Position numbers and translations under genes: made by a program. This document shows positions 4,170-58,774 of a stretch of 64,000 nt of DNA, piece by piece (positions within the stretch are counted from its first letter, which is position 1; each line of letters begins with the position of its first letter). The stretch is taken from positions 1 to 64,000 of the forward strand of contig CAITEC010000062.1 in the NCBI GenBank assembly GCA_903891325.1, in the 5' to 3' direction. The DNA is from an uncultured Opitutaceae bacterium (GTDB lineage: Bacteria > Verrucomicrobiota > Verrucomicrobiia > Opitutales > Opitutaceae). The notes beneath the pieces are model-generated. The model did not search any database. It saw only the letters and a list, made by a program, of their open reading frames with translations, and had not been told where the DNA came from.

Positions 4170-4930
4170 AACGCCCGGTCGCCGCTCTAGCGATCGCGGT
4201 TTGCGCGCTTGTTGCGGGTGCCGCGGGCCTGCGCGCCCAGGCCGGCCCGCCGATGATCACGGACGACCCGGGAACGACACCCGCCGGCCATTGGACGATC
4301 AACACGGCGTGGACCGACCAGCGGACCCCCGGCTCGACGCTGACCGGGCTGCCGCTCCTCGACGCAAATTACGGGGCGACCGACAGGGTGGAGCTCAATT
4401 ACCTGGCTTCGTGGAACACCCTGCGCGAATCGGACGGGCCGACAGCCAACAGCCTGAGCGATTCGGAGCTATCGGTAAAGTGGCGCTTTTGGGACCACGG
4501 TGAACGAACCCTGCAGGTGTCGACCGCACCCCGCCTCTTCCTTCCCGGCCCGGGATCGGACCCGCACCGCCCGGAACTGGCGGACCCGCACGCCAGTTTC
4601 CTTCTCCCCATCGAGATCGCGCGGGACTTCAGCGAACTGTCCGCGGGCGTGGAACTCGGCGACACCTTCAGCCGGTCGGCCGGGAGTCGGGAATGGGTCG
4701 GCGGGTTCTGCGTCGGCCGCGACATCGTGAAGGGGTGGGACGTCGACGCGGAGATTCACACCGCGGCCTCCGAGAACGTCGCGCGCAAGGAGGTGACGGT
4801 GAACCTGGGCACCCGCTACGAGCTCAACGAGCATTTCACGCTGCTCCTCTCGGCCGGGCGGGACGTGCGGAACACGCTGGGGCCGAAGGCGTCGCTGCTG
4901 ACCTACGCGGGCATGCAGATTTGTTTCTAA
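4166..4930 (+). CDS. Outer-membrane beta-barrel, MetA-phenol-degradation/transporter-like
   Basis: 254 aa. A signal peptide ends near L-R-A-Q-A, followed by P-P-M-I-T-D-D-P-G-T and G-H-W-T-I-N, the typical opening of the Phenol_MetA_deg/'transporter' outer-membrane family. The rest alternates as barrel strands and ends in Phe, as expected for Bam recognition. It is translationally coupled to the beta-propeller gene, so the pair may work as a periplasmic binding protein plus outer-membrane channel (inference). Its TAA stop (4928-4930) is also the first three bases of the 26-bp inverted repeat bounding the RAYT element. A decayed relative of its 3' end lies past that element. Confidence 0.75.
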   Translation: MKRPVAALAIAVCALVAGAAGLRAQAGPPMITDDPGTTPAGHWTINTAWTDQRTPGSTLTGLPLLDANYGATDRVELNYLASWNTLRESDGPTANSLSDSELSVKWRFWDHGERTLQVSTAPRLFLPGPGSDPHRPELADPHASFLLPIEIARDFSELSAGVELGDTFSRSAGSREWVGGFCVGRDIVKGWDVDAEIHTAASENVARKEVTVNLGTRYELNEHFTLLLSAGRDVRNTLGPKASLLTYAGMQICF

Positions 4931-5874
4931 GGGGTCGCGCCGCTACTTGTTAAATGTGACCGCTTTCGGGAAAGATACACCCTCACCGAGCTCGGAGAAC
5001 CCATGGTAAGTTTCTCCGCAATCCATGGAATTGACGCCCCCGAGACCCGCCGCAGTTCATCGGCCAGGGCGACTTTCCAAGGTGCGCCTTTGGGATCCAT
5101 CCTTGCGCCTTCCCTCGTCCGGTTCGCATCCGCGAGCAGAGCCTCAAGTGCCGCCGTCCATCGTAGGTGCTTGAGTTCCGGCTCATCAGCGCCGGACACC
5201 GCGAGTTCGGCTAGGCGGTCCTTGTGTGCTTCTGCGATTTCTTTACGCCATTCATTGCTTCCAACTGCCCAACCCGACTCGCAGCCCGCTAGCTCCTGTT
5301 GTTCGGGATTCGCCTTTTCATCAACCAGCCCCGCCAGATGCGCAGCGTAGTCCCTCCAGCCCTCAGGAGTGTCGGTGAGGTCCAGTTCGGATAGCCAATC
5401 CTGGCAGACAAGGAAAGCAGGCCTATTTGCCTTCAAGAACCGCCGATAGCTGCTCCATGGGTATTGGACGAGGTTCTCAACGGTTACAATTCCTGCTCGA
5501 ACCGGATTGAGATGAATGTAATTCACAACCCGGGCCAGGGAGATGCCTGATTCAATTAGCAACGCCTTTGGCCTTCCCTGAAAGACATGGCCGTTTTCCT
5601 TGCGATAGCGGTTAAAGCGCGTGGAAAACGTGCTCGAGAGCCAGTGAAGACCCTGGCTCAGATTGGCCCGTGGGGTCTCAAGCGCCAGGTGGTAGTGGTT
5701 GCGCATCACCATGTGGGCGTGCAACAGCCAACCCATCCGCTCGGCTGCTTCGAAAAGTGTATCCTCGAACGCCCGAGCCGAACCTTCATCTTCAAACACG
5801 TCATACCGGTAATTTCCACGGTTAATGACGTGGTAAAGTGCCCTTTCGAACTCGATCCTCGGTTTGCGCACCAT
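4927..5874 (-). CDS. REP-associated tyrosine transposase (RAYT, Y1/HUH family)
   Basis: 315 aa. The HUH motif is H-Y-H at residues 60-62 (M-R-N-H-Y-H-L-A-L-E). The RAYT signatures G-H-V-F-Q-G-R and Y-I-H-L-N-P-V-R-A-G-I-V follow; Tyr119 in the latter is the likely nucleophile, by family comparison. The C-terminal ~110 residues add a helix-turn-helix-like region (W-I-A-E-K-L-T-M-G-S-P-S-S-V), as in larger RAYT groups. RAYTs cut single-stranded REP hairpins and probably spread them. The gene looks intact. It is enclosed by a perfect 26-bp inverted repeat, unusual because most RAYT genes are single-copy and not clearly mobile. Confidence 0.93.
   Translation of the reverse strand: MVRKPRIEFERALYHVINRGNYRYDVFEDEGSARAFEDTLFEAAERMGWLLHAHMVMRNHYHLALETPRANLSQGLHWLSSTFSTRFNRYRKENGHVFQGRPKALLIESGISLARVVNYIHLNPVRAGIVTVENLVQYPWSSYRRFLKANRPAFLVCQDWLSELDLTDTPEGWRDYAAHLAGLVDEKANPEQQELAGCESGWAVGSNEWRKEIAEAHKDRLAELAVSGADEPELKHLRWTAALEALLADANRTREGARMDPKGAPWKVALADELRRVSGASIPWIAEKLTMGSPSSVRVYLSRKRSHLTSSGATP
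4928..4953. repeat. Left 26-bp inverted repeat of RAYT element
   Basis: It begins TAAGGGGTCGCGCCGC and is exactly reverse-complementary to 5929-5954; the match stops abruptly at both ends. Its first three bases are the stop codon of the outer-membrane gene, and the transposase stop also falls at this end. Confidence 0.92.
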
Positions 5875-10705: not shown

Positions 10706-10743
10706 GCAGAAACCTGAGACCTGAGACCTGAAACCTGAGTCGA
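10706..10743 (-). repeat. Heptad-repeat element A
   Basis: On the minus strand: flank ending GATCGAC, then TCAGGTT-TCAGGTC-TCAGGTC-TCAGGTT, then TCTGC. It lies in the 256-bp gap between the DUF883 and EF-hand genes. The rest of the gap (to 10803) holds two copies of the flank motif GTCGATCSTTCAARCC, near 10739 and 10780, and G-rich runs. Confidence 0.85.
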
Positions 10744-16226: not shown

Positions 16227-18104
16227 ATGGCATCGCGAAATACGAGCGCCGGCGGCCCGGTTCCCACTCCCGACCTCGCTCCCCTCCAGCCCGTTCTGAT
16301 CGGCGGCGCGCTTATCGCCCTCGCCGCGATTGCCGCCTACGGGCGGACGCTTGGGTGCCCCTTCGTCCTCGATGACGCCCCCTCGATCGTGGACAACCCG
16401 TCGATCCGCCATTGGGGCAGCGCGCTTTGGGCCCCGCCCGACACGACCGCCGGGGGCCGTCCCCTCCTGAACCTGTCCCTCGCCCTGAACTACGCAATCG
16501 GCGGAACGAACGTCGCCGGCTATCACGCCCTCAACCTGGCCATCCACATCCTGGCAGCCCTGACCCTCTTCGGAATCCTGCGCCGCACATTCGCCCTTCT
16601 CCCGGCAAAGCCCGCGTTTCATCCCCTCCTCCCCCTGGCGATCACGCTCATCTGGACCCTCCACCCCCTCCAGACCGAATCGGTAACCTACACCATCCAA
16701 CGAGCCGAGTCCCTGATGGGCCTTTTCTACCTCCTAACCCTCTACTTCTTCATTCGTTCGATCGGTTCCGATAGTTTGACTCAGGTTTCAGGTTTCAGGT
16801 CTCAGGTCTCTGCAAAGACGTTTCAGGTTTTTAGCGTCGCCTCCTGTTTGTGTTGCGTAGCAACAAAGGAGGTATCGGCGACGCTTCCGATCCTCCTCCT
16901 CCTCTACGACCGAACCTTCGCAGCCGGCAGCTTCCGTGAGGCCTGGGCCCGGCGCCGGAAGTTTCACCTCTGCCTGATGGCGACCTGGATCCCGCTGGCC
17001 GCCCTGGTCCTGGCGACCCACGGCCGGGCCAGCACCGCGGGTTTCGGCAGCGGGGTCTCCGTGGGCGCCTACGCCCGGGACCAGTTGGCGGCCGTGCCTC
17101 ACTACCTTCGGCTCTGCCTTTGGCCCAGCCCGCTGGTGTTTGACTACGGGACCTCGCTGGGCTTCCCGAACAGCCGGGTCGCGGCCGGCGCGGCCGTCCT
17201 CATCTCTCTGGCAGCCGCCACGGGATGGGCCCTGGTCCGGCGGCCTGCCGCGGGATTCCTCGGGGCCTGCTTTTTTGTGATCCTCGCGCCGAGCTCGAGC
17301 GTCATCCCCGTGGCCACCGAGCCCATGGCCGAGCACCGGATGTATCTCCCTTTGGCGGCCGTCGCCGTCGCTTTTGCCGCCGGGCTCCACGCGCTTTTGG
17401 GCAGGCGGAGCCTTCCCGCGCTCCTGGCGCTCGCCGCCGTGCTGGGATGGGCGACCGTCCGCCGGAACTCGGTCTACGCGGATGAGGAGGGCCTCTGGCG
17501 CGACACGCTGGCCAAATGCCCGTCGAACGAGAGGGCGCGCAACAACCTGGGCAATGTGCTCGCGGGGAGGGCCGGTCGGCTCGACGACGCGATCGCGGAG
17601 TACCGCGAGGCCGTCCGGCTCAGGCCGACGTACGCGGAGGCCCAGTTCAACCTGGGTTGCGCCCTCGAGAGGAGTGCGGGGGGAACTGGGGAGGCGATCG
17701 CCGCCTACCGCAGCGCGATCGCGCTGAAGCCTGATTTTGCCGAGGCCCACAACAACCTGGGGAACGCGCTCGAGAAGCTTCCGGGGAGTTCGCCCGAGGC
17801 GATCACCCAGTTTGAGGCCGCCGTGCGGCTGAACCCCGGCTACGCCGAGGCCCGCAACAATCTCGGAGGGGCGCTCCTGGATGTGCCCGGCCGGCTCGGC
17901 GATGCGACGGACCAAATCCGGGAAGCCCTGCGCCTCCAGCCCGCCAACCCCGCGGCGCACGTCAACCTGGCGGTCGCGCTCCTGATGACCAACGTCCCCG
18001 CGCAGGCGGACGAGGCGGTCTCACACCTCCGGGAGGCGCTCCGGCTCCAGCCGGGAAACCCCGCGGCCCGCGGCCTGCTCGAAAGGATGGGACAGCCGCC
18101 GTGA
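16227..18104 (+). CDS. Polytopic membrane protein with C-terminal TPRs (TMTC/PMT-like)
   Basis: 625 aa. The N-terminal ~430 residues hold about ten membrane helices with the start G-C-P-F-V-L-D-D-A-P-S-I-V-D-N-P and H-P-L-Q-T-E-S-V-T-Y, typical of the TMTC-like protein-O-mannosyltransferase-related family. Five or so TPRs follow (N-N-L-G-N-V-L-A, A-Q-F-N-L-G-C-A-L). It probably transfers a lipid-linked sugar at the outer face of the inner membrane (inference). Residues ~185-205 (T-Q-V-S-G-F-R-S-Q-V-S) are encoded by heptad repeat B and are foreign-looking between two membrane helices. Its TGA overlaps the GTG of the next gene. Confidence 0.85.
   Translation: MASRNTSAGGPVPTPDLAPLQPVLIGGALIALAAIAAYGRTLGCPFVLDDAPSIVDNPSIRHWGSALWAPPDTTAGGRPLLNLSLALNYAIGGTNVAGYHALNLAIHILAALTLFGILRRTFALLPAKPAFHPLLPLAITLIWTLHPLQTESVTYTIQRAESLMGLFYLLTLYFFIRSIGSDSLTQVSGFRSQVSAKTFQVFSVASCLCCVATKEVSATLPILLLLYDRTFAAGSFREAWARRRKFHLCLMATWIPLAALVLATHGRASTAGFGSGVSVGAYARDQLAAVPHYLRLCLWPSPLVFDYGTSLGFPNSRVAAGAAVLISLAAATGWALVRRPAAGFLGACFFVILAPSSSVIPVATEPMAEHRMYLPLAAVAVAFAAGLHALLGRRSLPALLALAAVLGWATVRRNSVYADEEGLWRDTLAKCPSNERARNNLGNVLAGRAGRLDDAIAEYREAVRLRPTYAEAQFNLGCALERSAGGTGEAIAAYRSAIALKPDFAEAHNNLGNALEKLPGSSPEAITQFEAAVRLNPGYAEARNNLGGALLDVPGRLGDATDQIREALRLQPANPAAHVNLAVALLMTNVPAQADEAVSHLREALRLQPGNPAARGLLERMGQPP
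16779..16828 (+). repeat. Heptad-repeat element B, in frame inside a gene
   Basis: GAC then TCAGGTT-TCAGGTT-TCAGGTC-TCAGGTC-TCTGC, with one more TTTCAGGTT at 16820-16828. It encodes T-Q-V-S-G-F-R-S-Q-V-S in a loop of the membrane protein. Gain or loss of one unit would shift the reading frame. Confidence 0.9.
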
Positions 18105-19375
18105 GAACCCCTGCGGAAAAAGAACGGGACGACCTGGTCCGAAAGGTCTGCCTTGTCGGGCTGCAGCGGATCCGCGAGAAGCGCTTCGATGACGCGGTCA
18201 TCGCGTTCCAGGCGGCGCTCGAGCTCAAGCCGGAATATGCGGACGCCTACAACGACCTGGGAACGGCGCACCAGCTCGCCGGCCGCGTGGACGAGGCGAT
18301 GGCCGCCTACGGGCACGCGCTCAGGATCGATCCGGACCATCCCAAGGCCTGGAGCAACGTCGGCGCCGCGCACATGCAGCGCAACGAGCCGCTCCGGGCA
18401 ATCGCGGCCTACGAGCGGGCGATCGCGCTCAACCGGCACAACGCCAGGATCCGGACCAATCTTGCCTTCGCACGCCTGCTCATGGGGGACCTGCTCGCCG
18501 GGTGGCGGCATTACGAGGCTCGCTGGGCGGCGGGATTGACCGGCGTCAAGCGGATCGGAAAGCGCAAGCCCTGGCTCGGGGGGCGATCGATTCACGGACG
18601 CACCATCCTCATCTGCAACGAGCAGGGCCTCGGGGACATGATGCAGTTCGCGCGCTTCGTGCCGCTGGTTGTCGCGCTGGGCGCGAAGGTCCACCTCGAG
18701 GCGCCGCCGCCCCTCATCCGGATCTTCCAGGCCTCCTTTCCGGGCGTCGAGGCCGTCCACTCGACGGAGGGCCCCGTCCCCGAGTGCGACGAGATCTGCA
18801 CGGTGCCGAGCCTGGCGCTCGCTTTTGAGACCGAGCTGCACACGATTCCCTCCGACGTACCGTACCTGCGCCCGCCGGCGGGCGCCCACCCTTTCCTGCC
18901 CGCGCGGACCTCGGGTGTTCCCCGGATCGGGCTGGCCTGGTCGGGGTTCGCGGGCCACACCAACGACGCAAACCGCTCGATTCCCTTCGAGCGCTTCCGG
19001 ATGATTCCCGACGGGATCCCCCTCCAGTTTATCTGCCTGCAGAAGGAGATCCGGAAGAGGGACGAGGCCGACCTGGCGGCCTCCGGCGTCCCGTCCTTCA
19101 CGGACCGGATCGGGGATTTCGCGGACACGGCGGGTTTGATCGGGGAGGTCGACCTGGTGATCGCCGTCGACACCTCGATCGCGCACCTGGCCGGAGCCAT
19201 GGGCCGGCCGACCTGGGTCCTCCTGCCCCACGTTCCGGACTGGCGCTGGATGCTCGAGCGGGCGGATTGCCCGTGGTACCCGACGATGCGTCTCTTCCGC
19301 CAGCCGCGCGCCGGCGACTGGGAGGCTGTCTTCGGGGAGGTTTTGAAGGCGCTCGGGACCTGGGCGGCGCGATGA
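18101..19375 (+). CDS. TPR protein with GT9/heptosyltransferase-like domain
   Basis: 424 aa, starting at a GTG within GTGA (18101), coupled to the upstream stop. Residues ~1-150 are TPRs (A-Y-N-D-L-G-T-A-H-Q-L, A-W-S-N-V-G-A-A-H-M). The C-terminal half has the Rossmann-like pattern of glycosyltransferase family 9 (I-L-I-C-N-E-Q-G-L-G-D-M-M-Q-F-A-R, then I-G-L-A-W-S-G and D-L-V-I-A-V-D-T-S-I-A-H-L-A-G-A-M-G). It is cytoplasmic. It probably adds or handles sugar on a glycan or on protein together with its two membrane neighbours (inference). Confidence 0.85.
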   Translation: MRTPAEKERDDLVRKVCLVGLQRIREKRFDDAVIAFQAALELKPEYADAYNDLGTAHQLAGRVDEAMAAYGHALRIDPDHPKAWSNVGAAHMQRNEPLRAIAAYERAIALNRHNARIRTNLAFARLLMGDLLAGWRHYEARWAAGLTGVKRIGKRKPWLGGRSIHGRTILICNEQGLGDMMQFARFVPLVVALGAKVHLEAPPPLIRIFQASFPGVEAVHSTEGPVPECDEICTVPSLALAFETELHTIPSDVPYLRPPAGAHPFLPARTSGVPRIGLAWSGFAGHTNDANRSIPFERFRMIPDGIPLQFICLQKEIRKRDEADLAASGVPSFTDRIGDFADTAGLIGEVDLVIAVDTSIAHLAGAMGRPTWVLLPHVPDWRWMLERADCPWYPTMRLFRQPRAGDWEAVFGEVLKALGTWAAR

Positions 19376-20988
19376 GCCGGGAAAAGTCCAGGCGCCCCGC
19401 CAATCCCCGCCCCCTGCCGCCTGACCGGGGCTCCGTCGTCCCGGTGGCCGTGCTCGTCGCCGCGGCTGTCGCCCTTGCCTATGCGCCCAGCCTTTCGGGG
19501 CATTATTTTTACGACGACAACACCTCCCTCCTCGCCAACGCCTCGGTGCGCTCCTTCCGGCCGCCGTGGGCTCCCCTGTTTCCTCCACGGACGGTGACGA
19601 CGGGAGGCCGTCCCCTGGCCAACCTGACCTTCGCCCTCAACTACGCGCTCGGCGGTTACGAACCGGCAGGGTACCACGCGGTCAACCTGCTCATCCACAT
19701 CGCCGCGACCCTGGCGCTCTTCGGGGCGGCCCGCCGCATCCTGATGTCCCCGGCGCTCAAGGGCCGCTTCGCCGGCGACGGCACCCTCGCCGCCGCCCTC
19801 ATCGCCGCCCTCTGGGGACTGCACCCCCTCCAGACCGAGGCGGTGACCTACATCATCCAAAGGGTCGAATCGCTAATGGGGCTGTTCTATTTGCTCACCC
19901 TCTACTTCTTTGTCCGTTCCGTCGGGGTCGAGGGCCCGACTCAGGTTTCAGGTTTCAAGTTTCAGGTTTCTGCCGTCGCCGCTTGCTTGTGCTGCGCAGC
20001 GACCAAAGAGGTGGCGGCGACTGCACCTATCATGGTCCTTCTCTGCGACCGCACCTTCTTTTCCGGCTCCTTCGCCGCGGCATGGCGGCGGCGCTGGCGA
20101 TTCCACCTCAGCCTGATGGCGACCTGGATTCCGCTCGCCGTCCTGGTCGCGGGCAACGGCTGGAGCCGCGGGGGCTCCGCCGGTTTCAACGTCGGCATCG
20201 CCCCTTGGGCCTACTGGCTTGTCCAGCTCAAGGCGGTTGCGACCTACCTCCGGCTCTCTGTCTGGCCACACCCGCTGGTCTTCGACTACGGGTCCTTCCA
20301 GATCACGGTCGCGGAGGCGCTGCCCTTCGGCCTGGTCGTCCTTCCCCTGGTCGCCGGCACGCTTGTCGCCTTGCGGCTCCGGCCGGCATGGGGATTTCTC
20401 GGCGCGTGGTTCCTGGCGATCCTGGCTCCCACCTCCATCATTCCAGGCTACTTCCAGGTGATCGTCGAGCACCGCATGTACCTGTCGCTTGCGGCGGTCG
20501 CCGCCGGCGCGGTTGCGGTCTGCCACCATTTTGGAAAACGCCGGGGATTGCTGCTGCTGGTCCCGGTGGCGGCGGTCCTCGCCCTGCTGACCGGCGAACG
20601 GAATGCGGTGTACGGCGACGATGAGGCGATGTGGCGCTCCGTCACGGAGGCGCGGCCGGAAAACAGCCGCGGGTTCAACAACCTGGGCAATGCCTACCTG
20701 CACGAGCGGAGGCTCGATGAGGCTGCGGATTGCTACCGTGCGGCGATCCGCCTGGATCCCGGCGCGATGGAGGCCCACGGCAACCTGGGCAACATTCTCC
20801 TGGCGACGGGCCGCGTGCCCGAGGCGATCGCGGAATTGTCGACTGCAGCCCGAATAAGGCCGCGGGAGCCGATAGCGCACCTGCTGCTTGGGAACGCGTA
20901 TAGGGCGGCCGGCCTCACTGCGCAGGCGGCGGAGGAATTCAAAAAGGCGGCGGAACTGGCACCCCGCGGCGGACCCGGCGCGCGCTGA
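19372..20988 (+). CDS. Second TMTC/PMT-like membrane-TPR protein, paralogue of the 16227 gene
   Basis: 538 aa, ATG 19372 in an ATGA overlap with the previous stop. It repeats the paralogue's landmarks: Y-D-D-N-T-S-L-L-A-N-A-S, H-P-L-Q-T-E-A-V-T-Y-I-I-Q-R, E-H-R-M-Y-L, then three TPRs (N-N-L-G-N-A-Y-L-H). Residues ~190-200 (T-Q-V-S-G-F-K-F-Q-V-S) are encoded by heptad repeat C at exactly the site where the paralogue carries repeat B. The three coupled genes likely form one glycosylation unit. Confidence 0.85.
   Translation: MSREKSRRPANPRPLPPDRGSVVPVAVLVAAAVALAYAPSLSGHYFYDDNTSLLANASVRSFRPPWAPLFPPRTVTTGGRPLANLTFALNYALGGYEPAGYHAVNLLIHIAATLALFGAARRILMSPALKGRFAGDGTLAAALIAALWGLHPLQTEAVTYIIQRVESLMGLFYLLTLYFFVRSVGVEGPTQVSGFKFQVSAVAACLCCAATKEVAATAPIMVLLCDRTFFSGSFAAAWRRRWRFHLSLMATWIPLAVLVAGNGWSRGGSAGFNVGIAPWAYWLVQLKAVATYLRLSVWPHPLVFDYGSFQITVAEALPFGLVVLPLVAGTLVALRLRPAWGFLGAWFLAILAPTSIIPGYFQVIVEHRMYLSLAAVAAGAVAVCHHFGKRRGLLLLVPVAAVLALLTGERNAVYGDDEAMWRSVTEARPENSRGFNNLGNAYLHERRLDEAADCYRAAIRLDPGAMEAHGNLGNILLATGRVPEAIAELSTAARIRPREPIAHLLLGNAYRAAGLTAQAAEEFKKAAELAPRGGPGAR
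19939..19972 (+). repeat. Heptad-repeat element C, in frame inside a gene
   Basis: GAC then TCAGGTT-TCAGGTT-TCAAGTT-TCAGGTT-TCTGC, in the same reading frame and protein position as element B in the paralogue. Confidence 0.88.
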
Positions 20989-35937: not shown

Positions 35938-36417
35938 GTGAAAACCATCCTTGCAGCAGTCGACTTCTCACCGGCCACCGAGGCCGTGGTTGCCGCCGCG
36001 GCGACGCACGCGCGGGCGTCGGGAAGCCGGATCGTCCTCCTGCACGTCGCCCCGGACTACGCCGCGCTCAGCTCCGTCGCGGAGGGTTTCAGCTACCCCC
36101 TGGACATGGGAACACCCCTGCCCGTCGACCAGGCCCGGATGACCGAGGTCGAGAAGGCCGCCGAGAACCGGCTCAAGAACATCGCGTTCAAGCTAAAGGG
36201 ATTGGAGGTCGAGACGATCGTGACGGCCGGCACGCCGCCCGAGGAAATCCTCCGGGTTTCCCGCGAAAGCGCGGCCGGATTGATCGTGATGGGGCTGCCC
36301 ACGCACAGCCCGCTCTACGAGCTGATCGCCGGGAGCGCGACCTATGGCGTCCTGAAGAAGGCGCCCTGCCAGCTGCTCTTCGTGCCCGCGGGGAAGTCCG
36401 CGTCCAAGGTGGCCTGA
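35938..36417 (+). CDS. Universal stress protein, UspA family
   Basis: 159 aa from the GTG at 35938, 3 bp past the regulator's stop, so probably co-transcribed. The fold marks are I-L-A-A-V-D-F-S at the start, V-L-L-H-V-A-P and the ATP-binding tail I-V-M-G-L-P-T-H-S-P-L, then G-S-A-T-Y-G-V-L-K-K-A-P-C. Expected role: ATP-binding stress response; specifics unknown. Confidence 0.93.
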   Translation: MKTILAAVDFSPATEAVVAAAATHARASGSRIVLLHVAPDYAALSSVAEGFSYPLDMGTPLPVDQARMTEVEKAAENRLKNIAFKLKGLEVETIVTAGTPPEEILRVSRESAAGLIVMGLPTHSPLYELIAGSATYGVLKKAPCQLLFVPAGKSASKVA

Positions 36418-36426
36418 CGGCCACCT

Positions 36427-36485
36427 GCCGAAACCTGAAACCTGAGACCTGAAACCTGAGTCGATCGGCCGGACCCCGGCTACAT
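36427..36485 (-). repeat. Heptad-repeat element D plus half GTAGCC palindrome
   Basis: On the minus strand: GATCGAC then TCAGGTT-TCAGGTC-TCAGGTT-TCAGGTT-TCGGC (36427-36467), next to GGACCCCGGCTACAT at 36471-36485, half of the GTAGCC palindrome family. It lies between uspA and the convergent CoA-transferase gene. Confidence 0.82.
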
Positions 36486-50600: not shown

Positions 50601-51380
50601 ATGAACACATCACGAAACACCTCCGGCTTCACGCTGGTCGAAACTCTGGCCGTCCTCGCCGTCATCGCGGCGATCATCGCCATCGGCGTTCCCGCCATAT
50701 CGAAAGTAATGCAAAGCAGCCGCATCCGCAGCGCGGAGGGCACCGCAAGCGTCATGAAGGCCGCGATGACCCAATACCTGGGGAAACCCGGGTCGCCCGG
50801 CACGCTTCCCGTCACCGAGGGGACCGTGCCCGCCTCGGAGTACACCACCTCCGGGACAATCCTGACGGCGGCCAATATCGCCGCCGCCGCCACGCTCGAT
50901 GGAATCCTCCTTGCGGAGGGGGCCCTCGAGCGGCCGATCGGCGTGCGGATGGGCGGGCAGAACTTCTCGCCCTCCGGCGCGGGTCCGACCTGGTCCCCGT
51001 CCCTCTCCCAGTTCACCGGCCCGGCCACCGGCACCTTGGCCAGCTACGCGGCCGCGACGCGCGCCGAGTGCGCCGTGAGCGACGGGGCGAACAATCCCGG
51101 GATAACCGGGCAGACGGCCGGCTCCGCAGCCTGCGCGTTCAACCTCGCCGGGTCCGGATCGCTGATCGCAACCGGAAGCCGGGTCGCCTACCTGGTGATC
51201 AAGGGCGCCGCCGACTCGGACGCCTACCAGCTTGCGCTCGACGTTGACGGAGCCGGCCTCACGCAGAACACCGCCTCCAGCCCCGCGGCCAACGACCAGT
51301 CCCAGGGCCCGGTCGTCTACTCAAAAGACGCATCGGCGGCCGGGTTTGTGGACGTCTACTACTACCTGACGAGCATCTGA
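50601..51380 (+). CDS. Type IV pilin-like prepilin (type II pseudopilin)
   Basis: 259 aa from the ATG 50601. The prepilin signal is N-T-S-G-F-T-L-V-E-T-L: cleavage after Gly9, N-methylated Phe10 and the conserved Glu14. A single hydrophobic helix follows (L-A-V-L-A-V-I-A-A-I). The globular domain is Ala/Thr/Ser-rich with two Cys about 20 residues apart (A-E-C-A-V and A-A-C-A-F) that could form a disulfide. Large for a major pilin. The TGA and the next ATG overlap by one base (TGATG). Confidence 0.93.
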   Translation: MNTSRNTSGFTLVETLAVLAVIAAIIAIGVPAISKVMQSSRIRSAEGTASVMKAAMTQYLGKPGSPGTLPVTEGTVPASEYTTSGTILTAANIAAAATLDGILLAEGALERPIGVRMGGQNFSPSGAGPTWSPSLSQFTGPATGTLASYAAATRAECAVSDGANNPGITGQTAGSAACAFNLAGSGSLIATGSRVAYLVIKGAADSDAYQLALDVDGAGLTQNTASSPAANDQSQGPVVYSKDASAAGFVDVYYYLTSI

Positions 51381-53029
51381 TGCCCGGCTCCCTGGTCATC
51401 CTGTGGTGGGGCGGAGACCTTCGGATTCTCGCGCCCGACGGGCGGCTGATCCGACCCCCTTCGGCGGCGCCCGGCGACGGCGTCGCGGCGGTCCTCCAGG
51501 CCGCGGCCGGCGAACGCGCGGGCGCCGCAGGCGCCCGCATCATCTACCACCCGGACACGCTCGACCTCCACGAGGTTTCCTGCCCCCGGACGAGCCGATC
51601 GCGCCTTGGCAGGATTCTCAGCCGCGAATTCCCGGCGCTGGCCGCGCCCGGCGCCGTCTGGAGCGCCGAGCCCATCCGTCGGGGCACCCGCGAATACGCG
51701 ACCGTTCTCTACGCCGACCGGGCGGGGAACCTGCCCCGCCTGGTCGCCGGCCTGGCCCGCGGTGGCCTGAGGGTCGAGGGCGCCTGGCCGCTGCAATCCC
51801 TGATCGAGGCCACCCCGCCCTGCGACGGCCCCGAAGCGCGCTTTCTCAGCCTCGTCTCGCTGGAGGGGCGCGCGCTCATCTCCTGCGTGGGCCCCTCGGG
51901 GGATCGCTCGCTGCGGTTCTTCGACGGGGACGGATTCTCCGACGGCGCCCTCGCCGCGGCGGCGGCGGGATTGGCGCGCTTCGACGAGGGATCGCCCCCT
52001 CCCGGGCTGATGGTCGTCGAGGAGGGCCCGTTCGCGGCCGCACTATCCGACGCGTTGCGGACGCCGTCGCTCAACCGAATGCCGCTCGCCCGGTTTCTCG
52101 AGAATGCCCGCGGCCTGCCCGCGGCCGGCTTCTCCGACTTCCTCGGGCACGGACCCTTTCTGTCCCGGCTGCCGGGCCGGCGCCGGCTGGCCACGCTCGC
52201 GGCGCTCGCGTTTCTCGCGGGCGCCGCGGGGGTCGCGTTGACCGCGCGACGCGAACGGGAGCGGGCCCTGGGCCGGGCCGAGCTGCTGCGCGAAGTCCGG
52301 GAACGCGAGCGGCGGTCCGAAGAGGACCGGGCGGAGGCCGAGACCGCGTTTTCCACGCTGGCGGGCGCGCTGTCCCGGGTCGAGGGCCCGGCCCGGCCCC
52401 ACCACCGATTCCTGGAGGCGCTCGCGAGGACCACGCCATCCGAGATCGCCCTGCGGTCAGTGAGCGTGGAGGGGGCCGCCATCCTCATCCGGGGGCGCGC
52501 CGACGGAAGCTCCCGGGATCCCGGCGGCCCCGCGGCACAGCTCAGCAGGGAACTCTCCGCGGCCGGAGCGGAGTGGCGCTTCAATCCGCCCGTCTTCGCG
52601 GAAGGCGGCGATTTCACGCTGGCGGGTTCATTCGAAGGGGCCAGGTCCCAACTTCTTAATTCGGATCGCGAATCAAGAAGTCGGGACCTGAGCCCTTTGC
52701 GCCACCGCCTCCAAGAGGAGCGCGACCAACTGCCCGACGCGGGAGCGCTCGACTCCCTATTGCGATCCAGCTTCAGCGGCTGGAAGGCCGAATTCCAACC
52801 CGGGGCTCCCGAAGACGGTCTCGAGCGGCGGATCTGCCGCATGGTCCTTGAACACCCGCGCATCGACGCGTGGCCGGGAATCCTCGAGGCGACGAGAGCC
52901 CTCTGCGAAACGCCCGGCCTGCGGATTGACAGCCTGGTACTCGAAGCCGGACCCGAGGACGGAGACGCATTCGCCCGGGTCGAGATCGTGTTCGAGGCGA
53001 CGCTCAAGCATCAGAAACCTGAAACCTGA
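51380..53029 (+). CDS. GspL/PilM-PilN-like assembly protein
   Basis: 549 aa. The N-terminal ~260 residues are an actin-like-ATPase-type domain (V-I-L-W-W-G-G-D-L-R-I-L; L-S-L-V-S-L-E-G-R-A-L). One membrane helix lies near residue 270-290 (T-L-A-A-L-A-F-L-A-G), then a coiled coil and a ferredoxin-like periplasmic domain, as GspL or PilN. Residues ~422-437 are encoded by a palindromic repeat. The last codons and the stop (K-P-E-T then TGA) come from heptad repeat E, so the true C-terminus may have been altered. Confidence 0.75.
   Translation: MPGSLVILWWGGDLRILAPDGRLIRPPSAAPGDGVAAVLQAAAGERAGAAGARIIYHPDTLDLHEVSCPRTSRSRLGRILSREFPALAAPGAVWSAEPIRRGTREYATVLYADRAGNLPRLVAGLARGGLRVEGAWPLQSLIEATPPCDGPEARFLSLVSLEGRALISCVGPSGDRSLRFFDGDGFSDGALAAAAAGLARFDEGSPPPGLMVVEEGPFAAALSDALRTPSLNRMPLARFLENARGLPAAGFSDFLGHGPFLSRLPGRRRLATLAALAFLAGAAGVALTARRERERALGRAELLREVRERERRSEEDRAEAETAFSTLAGALSRVEGPARPHHRFLEALARTTPSEIALRSVSVEGAAILIRGRADGSSRDPGGPAAQLSRELSAAGAEWRFNPPVFAEGGDFTLAGSFEGARSQLLNSDRESRSRDLSPLRHRLQEERDQLPDAGALDSLLRSSFSGWKAEFQPGAPEDGLERRICRMVLEHPRIDAWPGILEATRALCETPGLRIDSLVLEAGPEDGDAFARVEIVFEATLKHQKPET
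52642..52690. repeat. 22-bp imperfect palindrome inside a coding region
   Basis: CAGGTCCCAACTTCTTAATT (from 52642) mirrors 52669-52690 with 20 of 22 bases matching, around a 5-base loop. A half copy (CAGGTCCCAGCTTCTT) lies at 54708-54723. It adds a Ser/Arg/Asp-rich stretch to the GspL-like protein. Confidence 0.8.
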
Positions 53030-53050
53030 GACCTGAAACCTGAGTCGATC
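53011..53050 (-). repeat. Heptad-repeat element E, overlapping the GspL-like stop codon
   Basis: On the minus strand: GGATCGAC then TCAGGTT-TCAGGTC-TCAGGTT-TCAGGTT-TCTGA. The gene's TGA (53027-53029) lies in the tract. It faces away from element F, 45 bp downstream. Confidence 0.88.
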
Positions 53051-53095
53051 CTTCAAACCTGGAAATCGGCGGTCTTGCGCCTTGGCCCGACTTCG

Positions 53096-53125
53096 GGTTT
53101 CAGGTCTCAGGTTTCAGGTCTCTGC
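53096..53125 (+). repeat. Heptad-repeat element F
   Basis: GGTT-TCAGGTC-TCAGGTT-TCAGGTC-TCTGC on the plus strand, back to back with element E and next to the terminator stem at 53129. Confidence 0.85.
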
Positions 53126-58738: not shown

Positions 58739-58774
58739 GCCGAGACCTGAAACCTGAGACCTGAGACCTGAAGG
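58739..58774 (-). repeat. Heptad-repeat element G
   Basis: On the minus strand: TCAGGTC-TCAGGTC-TCAGGTT-TCAGGTC-TCGGC. It lies just before the next lipoprotein gene and faces away from H. The 40 bp between G and H include an inverted repeat CCCGAG-CGAAA / TTTCG-GCTCGGG. Confidence 0.85.

Follow-up and report, generated by a model that had tools for sequence, protein, structure and literature searches.

The two genes and their arrays

The window, i.e., the whole stretch of DNA analysed here, is 64,000 nucleotides of a contig (CAITEC010000062.1) from the assembly of an uncultured Opitutaceae bacterium (GCA_903891325.1), and its features are collected in Table 1. Among them are two paralogous genes, beginning at 16227 and 19372, each of which carries four CAGGTYT-type heptads in the same loop and in one reading frame. 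The in-frame reading is ACT CAG GTT TCA GGT TTC ARG in both, giving the peptide TQVSGFR in the product of the first gene (P0001) and TQVSGFK in that of the second (P0002). TRF reports each as a period-7 array, with 4.4 copies and a score of 48 in the 16227 gene and 4.3 copies and a score of 53 in the 19372 gene. The units are not uniform: those of the 16227 gene vary between T and C (TTCC), the third unit of the 19372 gene is CAAGTTT, and the 16227 gene has an extra fifth unit, set apart at about 16820-16834. Outside the loop region, the two genes are 44-48% identical.

A sequence-only reading of this DNA had described T-Q-V-S-G-F-[RK] in both genes, encoded by four heptads in one frame and lying between the same two membrane helices. 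TRF and the translations confirm the peptide and its encoding, and an AlphaFold model of P0001 (mean pLDDT 88.6) agrees with the site, as it places the loop with the array between predicted helices 156-184 and 196-213. The membrane half of the protein matches Pmt4, Pmt1-Pmt2, ArnT and OST with Z about 19 over 319-356 residues, a likeness that supports a GT-C membrane fold as modelled. The C-terminal half of both proteins is made of TPRs (Pfam), and an acidic motif in the first loop, D49 D50, is invariant in the host genes, which on fold and motif are predicted glycosyltransferases. This GT-C/TPR family was found in 13/13 genus genomes searched. Its expansion is strong, with 143 matches in the organism's own genome and 24-119 in each of 12 congeners.

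Table 1. Genes, heptad arrays and related features of the window (P0001 and P0002 are the products of the two host genes).
Feature	Position	Strand	Basis
RAYT-like gene; below the NCBIfam cut-off for REP-associated transposases	4927-5874	-	Y1_Tnp
Four-unit array, TCCT pattern, 5' flank GATCGACT	10710..10737 (TRF 10712-10739)	-	TRF, catalogue
P0001, predicted GT-C fold (PMT/ArnT/STT3-like) membrane protein with C-terminal TPRs, 625 aa	16227..18104	+	Translation, Pfam TPR, AlphaFold model
In-frame loop insert relative to congeners: GATAGTTTGACT + four heptads + CTGCAAAGAC + GTTTCAGGTTTTTAG	16770..16838 (approximate ends)	+	Loop comparison
Array CAGGTTT CAGGTTT CAGGTCT CAGGTCT, codes TQVSGFRSQVS	16780..16810	+	TRF, array catalogue
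P0002, second predicted GT-C/TPR paralogue, 538 aa	19372..20988	+	Translation, Pfam TPR, genus-wide homologues
Array CAGGTTT CAGGTTT CAAGTTT CAGGTTT, codes TQVSGFKFQVS, ends with the element's usual CTGC	19941..19970	+	TRF
Four-unit array, TCTT pattern	36431..36458 (TRF 36430-36459)	-	TRF, catalogue
Left arm of diverging inverted pair	53015..53042 (TRF 53014-53043)	-	TRF, catalogue
Right arm of diverging inverted pair, 58 bp from left arm	53101..53121 (TRF 53096-53122)	+	TRF
Intergenic four-unit array	58743..58770 (TRF 58742-58772)	-	TRF, catalogue

TRF finds five further arrays of the same heptad in the window, all outside genes. The outer end of the TCTT array lies ~13 nt past the stop of a gene at 35938-36417, and the left arm of the inverted pair (53015..53042) provides the stop codon of a gene at 51380-53029. 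The pair as a whole (53015-53121) folds at -70.8 kcal/mol, with a z of -10.5.

A dispersed element with a fixed pattern

The heptads are far above chance, yet they are no peculiarity of these two genes, because three consecutive units match the genome 171 times and a reversed control pattern 0 times. The same three-unit search returned no match in 37 relatives, 12 congeneric species among them. Our catalogue, built from fetched genome stretches, counts an array from two exact units upwards; it holds at least 127 arrays, 71 of them with exactly four units. In these four-unit arrays the variable base follows TCCT in 35 and TCTT in 19, and the frequency of C over units 1-4 is 0.13, 0.87, 0.65 and 0.06. 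Such a position-fixed pattern points to arrays copied as blocks, with no in-place growth by slippage.

The element can be outlined as about four CAGGTYT units, often with GATCGACT as 5' flank and with CTGCA at the 3' end. The catalogue holds 24 diverging array pairs, mostly spaced by 44-62 bp, and 0 converging pairs. With gene calls from a simple coding model, the outer end points at the tail of a gene for 83 of 111 arrays (p 1.7e-7), and intergenic arrays facing gene tails lie at a median of 19 nt from the stop. Of the catalogued arrays, 24 overlap gene 3' ends, every one of them antisense, and 13 of the at least 127 are internal to genes, all in sense orientation and all in one loop of the GT-C/TPR family. 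Genic arrays are sense and 3'-end overlaps antisense because the two strands differ: all three frames of repeated CAGGTYT are free of stops (they read QVSGFRF or QVSGLRS), and those of its complement each contain TGA. Six contigs (C27, C32, C33, C53, C60 and C104) begin or end near arrays, which suggests that the repeats break the assembly.

Beyond this genome, CAGGTYT arrays occur in many phyla, where they are mostly single, usually uniform in T and variable in length. Diverging pairs were found in only 6/388 genomes of the phylum, this one included; counting overlapping matches, there are 47 per strand here and 1-3 in the other five. Loci of Opitutus and Lacunisphaera hold similar paired arrays. 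Uniform heptad arrays of 13-18 units were seen at six loci from Flavobacterium, Kiritimatiellae, Terriglobia and Wenzhouxiangella (L105, L113, L118, L173, L190 and L206), and these would be better slippage candidates than the present arrays. A scan of viral contigs found a four-unit array in ten of them (L233-L242). A literature search on the heptad string gave nothing on the repeat, only an unrelated human-gene match.

The genome also has six divergent RAYT-like genes (Y1_Tnp), about 316-332 aa long with one ORF of up to 538 aa; besides the one in the window they lie on C110, C23, C88, C69 and C87. A GGGTCA or GGGGTC repeat stands within 80 nt upstream of 5/6. We considered these genes as the mover of the heptads and found no support for that role, because there is no heptad in the 2.7-3.9 kb around any of the six.

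One loop in many paralogues

Counting degenerate copies, heptads are present in the same loop of 14 of the 18 own paralogues examined and absent from the other four. All 14 array-bearing genes are open with the array in frame (0/14 out of frame); RSVDSESSTQVSGLRSQVSAKSGFRFQVFAVAAC is an example of such a loop. The sequence-only reading had proposed aligning orthologues, and in this alignment the congeneric homologues have no array and a short native loop, e.g., RSVESTRPLRWQVCAVAAC.

Genic inserts resemble intergenic copies of the element. For example, the insert of the 16227 gene and the copy at C53:12083 agree over 41 bases (95%), and the array of the 19372 gene matches copies at C96:13495 (37 bases, 97%) and C23:10748 (34 bases, 100%). 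The likeness can reach past the heptads, as in the 62 bases at 97% between the insert of the C75 gene and an intergenic copy on C13, and the C100 paralogue has the hairpin core besides the array. Different genic inserts match different intergenic copies (C102 with C103, C100 with C53 and C90, C75 with C13), which suggests that the element may have entered genes more than once.

Two other observations concern the same loop. An unrelated palindrome, CCTCCTTCGTCCC..GGGACTTCGGCGGG, occupies it in heptad-free own paralogues (L067:775 on C75 and L103:1280 on C15); a close variant is found in a congener (L043:2397, G012), and the own genome has six perfect copies, some outside the GT-C/TPR family. 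The native loop of the congener G010 (L024) has CAGGTCTGC, which resembles the 3' end of the element, CAGGTTTCTGC. Such a native CAGGT might have offered a landing site by microhomology, but the lead is weak, because the G010 loop has the sole CAGGTY among the 29 congener loops examined, and one occurrence is within what chance would produce.

Shared tracts and gene trees

We compared paralogue DNA in pairs using a GENECONV-like permutation test. Among pairs of array genes, 50/91 have significant shared tracts, and in 44/91 a tract abuts the loop. The corresponding counts for array/non-array pairs are 10/56 and 0/56, and significant tracts occur in 4/120 array-relative pairs and 8/120 relative-relative pairs. 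Third-position identity near the loop climbs in parallel with the shared tracts. The 16227 gene has tracts with other paralogues, and no 16227-19372 tract is among the significant pairs listed.

The two halves of the genes give different trees. Monophyly of the array genes is rejected by the C-terminal half (p-AU 0.0008), as is that of all own genes taken together (p-AU 0.0054). The N-terminal half does not reject monophyly of the array genes (p-AU 0.19), and the full-length tree requires 11 array-state changes. The N-terminal halves of own paralogues are more alike with or without an array, so there appears to be broad recombination in the family, i.e., exchange that is not array-specific. 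The array may ride along with this exchange or mark a boundary of it.

Origin of the arrays in the loop

At the level of sequence, we regard as well established the dispersal of the element, its copying in blocks, its orientation rule, its restriction to one coding family and site, its absence from congeners and the tracts shared around the loop. The explanation we consider probable has two steps: a dispersed heptad repeat of REP/REPIN-like character came into a loop that tolerated it, and short-tract gene conversion carried it from one paralogue to another. The heptads would thus be copies of a dispersed repeat that is found for the most part at the 3' ends of genes and that frequently takes the form of two diverging arms able to fold into a long hairpin. 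Half-elements would have got into one loop of the GT-C glycosyltransferase/TPR genes and would persist there, as their sense strand is free of stops in all frames, in contrast to the opposite strand with a TGA in each. Short-tract gene conversion, which we take to be the likely cause of the shared tracts, would then have handed the array, flanks included, from paralogue to paralogue. Likewise, entry probably came before conversion, the loop presumably tolerates the insert rather than needing it, and the elements at mRNA 3' ends may have a REP-like role.

The sequence-only reading had offered, as one option, an old shared insertion carried by duplication or gene conversion. Gene conversion gains from the array-free congeners and from the loop tracts in array-array pairs, and duplication fails on the C-terminal tree (p-AU 0.0008).

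It is unlikely that the element inserted independently and repeatedly at this one site in many paralogues, with conversion playing little or no part. Such repeated insertion would account for distinct genic inserts resembling distinct intergenic copies (the C102/C103, C100/C53/C90 and C75/C13 sets) and for the presence of a second, unrelated palindrome at this loop in other paralogues. However, the array paralogues also have native flanking DNA in common, to a degree far beyond what is seen over the rest of the gene.

A further idea builds on exchange between paralogues: the heptad elements might act as recombination anchors, seeding ectopic exchange at one loop and so a mosaic diversification of the predicted glycosyltransferases. 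We hold this to be distinctly unlikely. If it were true, loop lengths and sequences would be reassorted among the paralogues of a large family.

The main caveat for the preferred reading, entry followed by gene conversion, is the draft assembly, in which some joins among array paralogues may be chimeric. Short-read joins through the repeat could create a likeness between paralogues around the array, and such an origin would fit a draft of 140 contigs, the six contigs that begin or end near arrays and the uncorrelated N- and C-terminal relationships of own genes. Against it, the longest exact run common to array paralogues is 95 nt, array-free paralogues are also alike in the N-terminal half, and the 16227 and 19372 genes both sit within a 115 kb contig. 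We therefore consider chimeras a very unlikely source of the pattern as a whole.

One old ancestral insertion, multiplied by gene duplication within the species, would explain why site and orientation are identical in all copies, and one clade is not rejected on the N-terminal half. However, the two rejections on the C-terminal half and the 11 changes on the full-length tree make this highly improbable, and for the whole gene it is largely refuted already. Given the N-terminal result (p-AU 0.19), a single insertion followed by spread through larger N-terminal exchanges is possible.

The sequence-only reading had also suggested phase-variable contingency loci, in which slipped-strand changes of heptad number toggle the glycosyltransferases on and off; a unit of 7 is not divisible by 3, the array lies within the ORF, and surface glycosyltransferases are classical phase-variable genes, but this proposal found no support and is highly improbable. 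There are just 2-5 uninterrupted units rather than a long near-perfect slippage-prone array, intergenic copies mostly hold four units and keep the T/C pattern fixed by position, 14/14 array-bearing paralogues are open, and genic inserts differ in length by a multiple of 7 in 14/86 pairs vs 12.3 expected. A heptad in a gene is, on its own, no evidence of phase variation.

Comparison with known systems

These arrays join two poorly understood matters: dispersed heptamer repeats and the way in which proteins take up non-coding repeats in frame. The 14 paralogues with the insert, the 4 without it and the array-free congeners form a natural series, which lets one ask whether an all-frame-open repeat can colonise coding sequence, and whether gene conversion is steered by repeats. 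Rickettsia palindromic elements are dispersed palindromes kept in frame inside proteins, in many unrelated genes; the heptads are likewise in frame, but in only one family and at one site.

The closest counterpart in unit size is the TAACTGA heptamer, whose direct repeats occur in Beggiatoaceae, cyanobacteria and Bacteroidetes with a patchy distribution across phyla (MacGregor 2015, PMC4679880). The two systems share a 7-base unit, 2-6 copies per set, more than 100 mostly intergenic sets per genome, stops in all frames of one orientation with the other open, and overlap with ORF ends. However, the heptamer itself differs, and the present arrays favour gene 3' ends, whereas those of Beggiatoaceae lie upstream of start codons. 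Diverging inverted pairs, fixed unit patterns and in-frame recurrence in one gene family also set the present arrays apart.

In what is described of HMW1A of Haemophilus influenzae, heptanucleotide repeats switch expression by a change in copy number (PMC8262952). Our heptads resemble these in being 7-base tandem units tied to surface genes, but copy-number change underlies the switch there, whereas the heptads here are known from one assembly.

REP/REPIN elements are similar in being dispersed, mostly extragenic, downstream of genes, arranged as inverted hairpin pairs and occasionally intragenic, and GTAG REPs give stop codons to flanking ORFs as the heptad arrays do (PMC3116915, PMC3733652). 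In contrast to their short imperfect palindrome, the element here is a tandem heptad array, and the RAYT-like genes are not heptad-flanked. Neither a GTAG nor a CGTC foot tetranucleotide is found in the consensus flanks GATCGACT and CTGCA. Dispersed REP-like and heptamer repeats are thus already known; what is unusual here is that such a repeat has colonised a single coding site in many members of one gene family.
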